DNA from: Candidatus Gastranaerophilales bacterium
GTDB lineage: Bacteria; Cyanobacteriota; Vampirovibrionia; Gastranaerophilales; Gastranaerophilaceae
NCBI GenBank assembly: GCA_944324285.1
Contig: CALUVR010000002.1
Coordinates: forward strand, 62,001-126,000
Direction: 5' to 3'
Length of the DNA: 64,000 nt
In this document: positions 33,907 through 58,491 of the stretch, one piece after another
How positions within the stretch are numbered: position 1 is the stretch's first letter
How the letters are laid out: each line of letters opens with the position of its first letter
Translations under genes and position numbers: made by a program
The notes under the pieces: generated by a model
What the model saw: only the letters and a program-made list of their open reading frames with translations
What the model was told of the DNA's origin: nothing
The model's database searches: none

Positions 33907-34464
33907 ATGGGAAAAATTATCTTGGCGTCTTCTTCTCCCAGAAGACAGGATATCTTAAGACAAAACAATTACAAATTTGAAATCATTCCGTCCCCGTATG
34001 TTGAAGATCATACGAAGACGGATTTTTCTTATGAATTTATAGAAAACCTTGCGGCGAATAAGGCATTAGCAGTTCTACCGCTGGTGAATGAGCCTTGTAA
34101 AATAATAGGGGCAGATACAGTTGTAGTATTAGACGGGAAAATTCTCGGCAAACCCGACGGGGAAAAAGGGGCTGTTGAGATGTTGAAGAAACTTTCAGGA
34201 CGGCGGCATCAGGTCGTAACCTCTGTTGTAGTCGTTGATGCTCCTGATGGCACAATTAGGAAAAAATCAGTTACGAGTGATGTTGAATTTGAAAGCCTTA
34301 CGGATGAACAGATTGCATTTTACGTAAAAAACTTTAAACCGTTTGATAAAGCAGGTTCTTACGGAATACAAGAAATGCCGAAAGGATATATAAAATCTTA
34401 TTCCGGCAGTCTTGAAAATATTATAGGTTTATGCCCTGAGGCTGTTGCGGAACTTTTAAGGTAA
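33907..34464 (+). CDS. maf: Maf-family nucleoside triphosphate pyrophosphatase
   Basis: Hydrolyses modified or canonical NTPs to monophosphates; it is linked to septum inhibition when overproduced. Motifs: LASSSPRRQDILR (about residues 6-18), the SADTVV-like block IIGADTVVVLDGKILGKP, SGRRHQVVTSV, and GSYGIQ at about 158. Length 185 is normal. RBS AAAGGAA. It overlaps the convergent prepilin gene by 9 bp at its 3' end. Confidence 0.95.
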   Translation: MGKIILASSSPRRQDILRQNNYKFEIIPSPYVEDHTKTDFSYEFIENLAANKALAVLPLVNEPCKIIGADTVVVLDGKILGKPDGEKGAVEMLKKLSGRRHQVVTSVVVVDAPDGTIRKKSVTSDVEFESLTDEQIAFYVKNFKPFDKAGSYGIQEMPKGYIKSYSGSLENIIGLCPEAVAELLR

Positions 34465-35278
34465 GGTTTTCCAGTAGCCGTTTTCGCCTGTATCTGGATT
34501 TATATCTGCGATTGCATACCAAGAACACCCAATACCGTTTGCTTTCTGGTTAGATTTTGCACTGCAGGGGTTCCCTGCACGTTCTTTACTATATTCAGTA
34601 TCAAATTCCATACCGTCAAGTTCTTCATCTGTATACAATTTAGATTGTTTATTCCCGACAACTCTGTCCTGTTTATCTGTATACATTACAAAAATATCAT
34701 GCCCGAGTTTGTTAGGCTTTTTCAACCCGTTTGTGTCGACTGTAATATAAAGTTTATGTTCAATAATAGAATACTGCATTAGAGTTCCGTCTTTATTTTT
34801 ATAAACCTGCCAGAGGTTACCGAAACCTGCAATGGCAGACTTCGTTGCCTCCTGTCTGTTATTATAGGTGCGAATTTCATCTGTTCGCTTAATCTGGTAT
34901 TGTGAGTCATACTTATAAGTAGTATCAATTTCTTTTCCAATCCACGCTTTTGTCAACGCTTTATAGCAAGTTTCATTATTTGTATACTCAGAACCGTTAT
35001 AATCAGTACAAAATTCGGTAAAATTACCGACTCCTACATCAGCTTTTGCCGCAAGTACAACCTGCTGTGCTATGTTGTACGACTTTTTAAACTGGCTTTC
35101 GAGAACTTTCCCCTGATAATTTTTAATAAGCTGCGGCAGGGTCATTGCCGCTACAATTCCGATAATTCCAAGTGTAATTAATACTTCGGCTAAAGTGAAT
35201 GCAGTTCTATTATACCGCAGAGAGCTGCAGAAGCCCCCCCCCCCTCTTTGAAATTGACACTATAAGCGGGTTTTGCAT
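34456..35278 (-). CDS. Prepilin gene with G11 tract, out of frame as sequenced
   Basis: The prepilin frame is clear from FTLAEVLITLGIIG through the C-terminal domain (YKALTKAWIG, CSWYAIADINPDTG) to the stop at 34456. The start with ribosome site AAGGAG is at 35278, but after 11 codons it enters a run of eleven G (35234-35244) and then stops at a TAA. With G10 (or G7/G13) the start would read straight into the prepilin: MQNPLIVSISKRGG then FCSSLRYNRTAFTLAEV. Between an in-frame stop upstream and the FTLAEV sequence, no ATG, GTG or TTG exists in the prepilin frame. It could be phase-variable or a sequencing error. Confidence 0.7.
35234..35244. repeat. Homopolymer tract C11/G11 at prepilin 5' end
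   Basis: Eleven C on the plus strand, flanked by AGAAG and TCTTT. The same flanks (AGAAG...TCTT) surround the C12 tract at 58447, also at a prepilin 5' end. Typical of slipped-strand contingency loci. Confidence 0.9.
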
Positions 35279-35391
35279 GGTGTTCTCCTTCTTGAATTGT
35301 TAAAACGACAGTATTAATTTATACTGCCGTTTTATTTTATCATGTATATCCCTTGTAATCAAGAAGTCTATTTTGGGACTTATATAGCAAA

Positions 35392-35499
35392 TTCCACTAA
35401 AAATGGCTAAATTTGTCACCCTGAACTCGTTTCAGGGTCTCACAGTTTTGAGATGCTGAAACAAGTTCAGCATGACAGTATTACGCATATTTAGTGGAA
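35392..35499. repeat. Nested palindrome downstream of the GH13 gene
   Basis: Outer arms TTCCACTAAA (35392-35401) and TTTAGTGGAA (35490-35499) enclose a repeat whose halves GTCACCCTGAACTCGTTTC and GAAACAAGTTCAGCATGAC pair, 35415-35476. Related to the GTCATTCCGAAC repeat at 5753. It probably functions as an end-of-transcript structure. Confidence 0.7.
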
Positions 35500-57631: not shown

Positions 57632-58491
57632 TTATTTTTGCATCATTTCTTCGGCAGTATGCCCGCCCTTTTCTATAAGTTCACAGATTCCGGTAAGCCC
57701 GACTGTCATTGATTTTATGTTTTTTCTATATAATGTCAAAAAGAAAAAATCATATCCCCATTTATTGGGTCCCTTTTTACCGTTTACATCCAGTCCAAAT
57801 GTAATAGAATTACCATTATAATTAGGATAATTATAAACGTATAATAAAGACCCGTCACTAAGGTAATAACCTGTCTGCTCACCTATAGGGAAAATACATG
57901 CCGGGTATGCCTCATTTGTTGAACCTCCAGCAGCCAGAACTTCAGCTTTTGTTTTGTAGGTCGGTAAAATATCTTCGCGCGTACAAGCACTTCTATTATG
58001 AAATCCGCATTCTTTTAAAATTTTATACTTAGACAAAACTTTAGTCCAAAACTCCTCACATTCAGTAACGGAAGTATTCCAACCATTAGACATGAAGGCA
58101 TAACATTCATACGCAACTCCGTTTTCCGAATTGACTGAATTAATTGCAGTTTGAAAGTTTGTATAAGATTTCTTAAATTGTGAATATAAAACATGCTGCT
58201 GATATTTGGCAGTCAATGCAGGAAGCGTCATAGCCGCAACTATACCTATTATTCCAAGGGTTATAAGGACTTCAGCTAAGGTAAATGCCAAATTTTTTGA
58301 ACTATATATCAACTGCTTTTCCAGTGCAGATTTTTTAAAATGCTTTCCATCAGATGCTGTGCGATAAAAAATGCTGAACAGACGAATTTTTAACAATTTT
58401 ATTTTACTAATTAGCTTGGCAAACCCCGTGCTAATGCTTAAAGAAGCCCCCCCCCCCCTCTTGGGAATACAGTCATATCAATACTTTTCAT
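57632..58491 (-). CDS. Prepilin gene with G12 tract, out of frame as sequenced
   Basis: The frame with FTLAEVLITLGIIG continues to a stop at 57632, giving an otherwise normal prepilin with DVNGKKGPNKWGYDFF near its C-terminus. A start with AAGGAG lies at 58491 but its frame passes G12 (58447-58458) and hits TAA 3 codons later. G10 or G13 would join it to the prepilin, adding about 60 residues before FTLAEV (MKSIDMTVFPRGGG then SLSISTG...). The only other in-frame start is a TTG (58396) lacking a ribosome site. It follows the same pattern as 34456-35278. Confidence 0.65.
58447..58458. repeat. Homopolymer tract C12/G12 at prepilin 5' end
   Basis: Twelve C on the plus strand flanked by AGAAG and TCTTGGG; compare 35234-35244. 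Its length is 2 mod 3 too long (or 1 too short) for expression of the downstream prepilin from the upstream start. Confidence 0.9.

Follow-up and report, generated by a model that had tools for sequence, protein, structure and literature searches.

The locus analysed here raises the question of whether a tract of eleven G, placed between the start codon of a leader and the body of a prepilin so that the two are out of frame, is a switch of that gene, or whether its length is better explained by sequencing error, gene decay or a shift of frame during expression. The window (the whole stretch of DNA that was analysed, 64,000 nucleotides) belongs to Candidatus Gastranaerophilales, a group of non-photosynthetic relatives of cyanobacteria, and comes from an assembly of 2.03 Mb that is 99% complete. 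On the minus strand, the Shine-Dalgarno sequence AAGGAG (35285..35290) precedes an ATG at 35278-35276, from which eleven leader codons are read (ATG CAA AAC CCG CTT ATA GTG TCA ATT TCA AAG), followed by an A and by exactly eleven G (35244-35234); the tract begins 34 nt past the first base of the ATG. On its 3' side the resident frame continues as CTT CTG CAG CTC TCT GCG GTA TAA and ends at the stop codon 35212-35210, and the leader reading frame (35210..35278, minus strand) encodes a peptide of 22 aa, MQNPLIVSISKRGGGLLQLSAV. Removal of one G or addition of two (G10 or G13, the ON lengths) makes the leader read MQNPLIVSISKRGGGFCSSLRYNRTA|FTLAEVLITLGIIGIVAAMTLP and opens the frame as far as the stop at 34456; the prepilin body, from FTLAEV to the stop, occupies 34456..35199 on the minus strand and has 247 aa.

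The initial annotation had described this start codon, its ribosome site, the eleven codons, the tract and the stop, and had claimed that the prepilin frame needs one G fewer; direct reading agrees on every point. It had also claimed that the prepilin has no start of its own, and the list of candidates is indeed empty: between the upstream in-frame stop and FTLAEV, neither ATG nor GTG nor TTG occurs in the prepilin frame of this gene (L097). The first in-frame ATG is at 35145 and, as it sits inside the conserved helix, a start there would entail the loss of the prepilin motif. A downstream start for the prepilin is excluded in the window. Gene callers will miss such genes or cut them short, since the helix holds the only standard start of the prepilin frame. 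Just upstream of the leader, at 35400-35480 of the window, there is an imperfect palindrome (CTGAACTTGTTTCAG ... CTGAAACGAGTTCAG) that resembles an intergenic repeat element.

Runs of at least nine G are rare in DNA of this composition: dinucleotide-preserving shuffles of the window give about 0.04 expected per window, against 7 overlapping matches found, which derive from two tracts. Both tracts are located in prepilin leaders. The second gene (L038), also on the minus strand, has an ATG at 58489..58491 with the Shine-Dalgarno sequence GGAG at 58500-58497, a G12 tract at 58447..58458 whose ON lengths are again G10 and G13, and a body from FTLAEV to the stop of 217 aa (57632..58285), which reaches 16.4 bits with TIGR02532, over the cut-off of 16.3. 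It is likewise out of frame, so that the window holds two cases and not one.

The assignment of the first gene to the pilins rests on its N-terminus. Its scores fall just under the cut-off for TIGR02532 of NCBIfam (16.0 bits, cut-off 16.3) and below that for Pfam N_methyl (15.1 bits, cut-off 21.2), and the protein has the class III signal [GA]|F-x3-E followed by a hydrophobic helix (A|FTLAEVLITLGIIGIVAAM), which is a long N-terminal helix in the model. An AlphaFold2 model based on 19 relatives (pLDDT 86, pTM 0.81) predicts this helix to be 53 residues long and to be followed by a beta sheet. The plausible structural neighbours of the model are FimA, PAK and gonococcal pilins, all of them weak matches (Z 3.4-5.0), and Foldseek alone gave no significant match for it. 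We take the gene to encode a prepilin whose partner or target is unknown.

The arrangement recurs throughout the source genome. A search with the conserved helix found 78 prepilin N-termini, nearly all with bodies devoid of internal stops; this is an unusually large set of pilin-like genes for 2.03 Mb, and it is scattered over the contigs. The genome has 36 tracts of at least nine G, about 21 of which lie within prepilin leaders, where their place hardly varies: about 27-36 nt downstream of a start codon that has a ribosome site. The leader type common to these prepilins is MKTIDMTEF..GGG; prepilins without a tract have ordinary short leaders. Nineteen of the poly-G prepilin leaders have an intact start, and L049 alone among them is in frame (P=0.005 against an expectation of one third). 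The same leader is also found before a family-2 glycosyltransferase (L034; G9, ON) and before an RgpF-type protein (L048; G11, OFF). In three loci (L042, L043, L046) two FTLAEV-like motifs stand in tandem (e.g. GFTLAEVFSPLSGGKHTPAFTLAEVLITLG), as if the prepilin start had been duplicated.

Beyond this genome, the poly-G leader pattern is present in 54 of the 250 genomes of the family and in 9 of its 36 genera, with as many as about 45 prepilins bearing it in one genome; it was found neither in the 12 genomes taken from the rest of the order nor in about 80 further ones of the phylum. Within the genus, 100 leaders comprise 5 that are ON, 84 with one G too many and 11 with one too few. Across the family, 308 leaders from 43 genomes were compared: 23 are in frame, 123 are one G too long and 162 one too short, 92% thus being off by one. 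Against an expectation of one third ON the deficit has P=2.4e-27, a value to be read with the reservation that leaders are copied and their counts are consequently not independent. The deficit is separately visible in genera g1, g7, g13 and g22, and is not significant in g38 (5/23 ON) and g8 (2/10 ON).

A majority of genes out of frame is also what decaying pseudogenes would give, the silent prepilins being in that case dead copies. Dead genes would gather stops and broken tracts, and the opposite is found: apart from the open bodies of almost all of the 78 prepilins, the segment from the tract to FTLAE contains no stop in the ON frame of any of the 308 leaders, as against 233/308 and 227/308 (about 75%) in the other two frames. 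We therefore give decay hardly any credence. The silent frame is instead under selection to be read and, since it is open and contains almost no start codons (only 6 of the 308 leaders have one between the tract and FTLAE), the tract must be crossed for the protein to be made. The tracts are also kept pure, in that the pattern interrupted by one base gave 3 matches in the 15 genomes holding most of the pure tracts. Two attributes of a phase-variable gene are accordingly found here: a hypermutable repeat in the 5' part of the reading frame (G11, pure across the family) and, as predicted from the sequences of the window and of the 308 leaders, a product decided by tract length.

The resting length differs between genera. 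Leaders of g1 rest at G11 (80/108) and are ON at G10, one G too many being present in 89/108; those of g7 rest at G10 (105/115) and are ON at G11, with one G too few in 103/115; in g22 the resident length is G10 and the ON length G11, in g38 they are G9 and G10. Both signs of shift are also found within single genomes. Opposite directions of this kind argue against two explanations at once. The first is a homopolymer error of sequencing or assembly, by which the true tract would be G10 and the gene simply in frame; the initial annotation had kept it as an alternative. Homopolymers of this length are error-prone and no read data are available, but an error acting in one direction would not give an excess of G in g1 and a shortage in g7 and g22, the bias recurs in 43 assemblies and, even with one length misread, the long tract would still stand in a frame that is required. 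For the family, where the modal tract has a G to spare in one genus and lacks one in another, such an error is very unlikely, and for the window gene we would be greatly surprised by it.

The second explanation is programmed ribosomal frameshifting, in which the poly-G itself would carry ribosomes into the prepilin frame. It would account for the conservation of the tract and for an off-by-one frame that is constant inside a genus, but the shift needed is opposite between genera (an excess of G in g1; a shortage in g7, g22 and g38) and, given both signs within single genomes, a constant direction is lacking; moreover the window leader has no significant structure (z 0.54). We regard frameshifting as very improbable. 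The same folding result bears on a possible ribosome-site hairpin spanning the switch: CTCC is enriched after the tract and, in 43 genomes, pairs with the Shine-Dalgarno sequence of its own leader beyond permuted pairs (z -8.2, or -2.8 within genomes). As shuffled sequences fold just as well as the window leader, this hairpin is not relied upon, and the idea that a leader hairpin hides the ribosome site was dropped for want of support there. No RNA family was found in the leader in Rfam at the gathering threshold.

That the tract changes length in the DNA is indicated by recently copied leaders. In genome G118, two different pilins share a block of 197 bp (97.5% identity) extending from the ribosome site to mature pilin residue 40, whose sole indel is one G, which makes one copy G11 (ON) and the other G10 (OFF). 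A pair in G005 shares 171 bp with one substitution and differs by G12 versus G10, and between G155 and G163 a stretch of 1026 bp is free of substitutions and differs only in two bases where the tract ends. Over five copied blocks, a small and hand-picked sample, indels are concentrated in the tract (Fisher P=2e-4). The copied blocks also show a leader that travels as a module among pilins whose bodies differ.

These pairs also weigh upon transcriptional slippage, in which RNA polymerase would add or drop a G, every cell would make a small fraction of in-frame mRNA and the tract would be a built-in damper of expression and not a genetic switch. Such a process, best documented on A/T runs, fits the uniform resident lengths (G10 in 105/115 leaders of g7, G11 in 80/108 of g1), and either sign of shift would work, with off-by-one as the commonest state; against it, the lengths of the tract in the DNA itself differ between near-identical leaders, ON/OFF pairs included. 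We consider it unlikely as the main explanation; it could add low-level expression and is not excluded without RNA data.

Variation among very close copies is thus observed for sister loci in the family and not for the window locus, for which no raw reads and no second isolate of the species were compared. Only one syntenic orthologue of the window gene was available for a series of lengths (L098 in G011, 76% protein identity), in a different arrangement. The initial annotation had proposed that homologues be searched for a tract of another length: copied leaders do differ by the tract, while the sole syntenic orthologue is also G11. That orthologue keeps its tract and has a downstream start of its own, so that expression there does not depend on the switch. 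Among genome records of named species, the window gene gave one distant match, in Candidatus Scatousia excrementigallinarum, which ends before the leader. In G011, three loci (L098, L118, L125) have the poly-G leader 150-180 nt upstream of FTLAEV, and their prepilins are each provided with a ribosome site and a start; in L098 and L118 the leader would be fused in frame to the prepilin at one other length of the tract, in L125 it would not. A conserved GTGCC...GGCAC-like hairpin lies between leader and prepilin gene.

Our preferred reading, which we hold with good though not full confidence, is that G11 is a putative switch by which slipped-strand mispairing makes a type IV prepilin phase-variable through its leader, the prepilin being one member of a large repertoire that is silent by default. 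Slipped-strand variation had been inferred for this gene by the initial annotation; relatives support it strongly, through the copied leaders and the ON frames open in 308 of 308, and at the window locus itself switching remains inferred and unseen. Ribosomes would start at the ATG 35278 and, with G11, would meet the stop after 22 codons, yielding no pilin; replication slippage to 10 (or 13) G would put the leader in frame with FTLAEV and give the full prepilin. The unit involved is a modular 5' leader composed of a ribosome site, about 10 codons, poly-G, a short spacer and the conserved pilin helix, common to about 20 prepilins here and to dozens in related genomes, and copied between genes. 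With resident tracts almost always one base off the ON length, the repertoire would be OFF by default and rare cells would express single members. Anatomy, dependence on frame, constraint on the ON frame, tract-only differences of copied leaders and the bias towards OFF are read from the genomes; switching in living populations, its rate and its effect on pili are inferred from them, as is the adaptive role, probably a changing of surface contacts or of antigens within the gut.

The oddest feature, and one that counts against the switch, is the striking uniformity of tract lengths within a genus (105/115 G10 in g7): slippage that ran freely would scatter them more. It may be inferred that in each lineage there is a tract length at which G is gained as often as it is lost, with the ON frame one base away. 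Lost mismatch repair was rejected as a cause of slippage, since 12 of the 13 genomes of the genus have mutL; nothing marks the cells as obvious mutators, and slippage is not explained in this way. A broader hypothesis, which we put forward tentatively and would not yet back at even odds, is that a hypermutable modular leader may keep dozens of prepilins silent with the ON length one base from that favoured by replication, that each cell would express by chance at most a few pilins, and that copying of the leader would recruit new members.

Several known systems are similar in part. In Neisseria, the pilus gene pilC has a poly-G tract within its coding sequence, where slippage sets on and off and the tract ranges over G9-20 (PMC5953494); the likeness is a poly-G switch within the frame of a type IV pilus gene. 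PilC, however, is a pilus-tip and biogenesis protein with one or two copies and not a prepilin, whereas here the switch precedes the cleavage site in dozens of paralogous prepilins that are overwhelmingly OFF. As in pilE/pilS of Neisseria, the pilin repertoire exceeds the expressed set and blocks are copied between pilin loci, but ribosome site and switch here belong to each gene separately, no one locus was identified at which expression takes place, and the copied block is the 5' leader with the helix and not the variable part. Gonococcal Opa proteins have CTTCT repeats in the leader-coding part of a surface-protein family, each locus switching separately, and in both respects resemble the present leaders; they differ in the pentanucleotide repeat, in being outer-membrane adhesins and in their fewer loci. 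Opa is listed among the phase-variable genes of Neisseria, and the poly-G phasome of this genus includes glycosyltransferases that modify pilin, with a modal tract length of 9-10 (PMC5953494). The phasomes of Campylobacter and Neisseria are alike in having many poly-G tracts in genes of surface structures, glycosyltransferases among them, while here one shared leader module bears the tract at a fixed position, about 29 nt past the start, and is off by one in 92% of cases.

Genes of type IV pili have been noted in Gastranaerophilales, in a passage without mention of switching (PMC5877343); papers under open licence gave us no account of prepilins that are phase-variable in this lineage. The best-known examples of poly-G phase variation come from a handful of lineages of Proteobacteria, and the present data place it in gut-dwelling non-photosynthetic relatives of cyanobacteria, pointing to a large and previously unreported set of pili that single cells could switch on by chance. 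They also raise the question, testable with existing metagenome reads, of whether resident tract lengths are tuned so that the whole surface repertoire is silent by default.

Other tracts of the source genome lie outside prepilin leaders. In L041 the reading frame of a poly-G leader (G11) has TCATGA at its end and there overlaps the first codon region of a gene that looks fucosyltransferase-like (named by eye, without a Pfam match), and tract length would decide translational coupling to it; the terminal residues of that leader, GFTPLLEAV, resemble a degraded FTLAEV. Poly-G tracts without such a leader are found in L033 (G16), L045, L047, L050, L060, L064 and L065. Moreover, L059, which encodes a repeat protein resembling adhesins, has an internal G12 tract and may be a further surface gene subject to phase variation.
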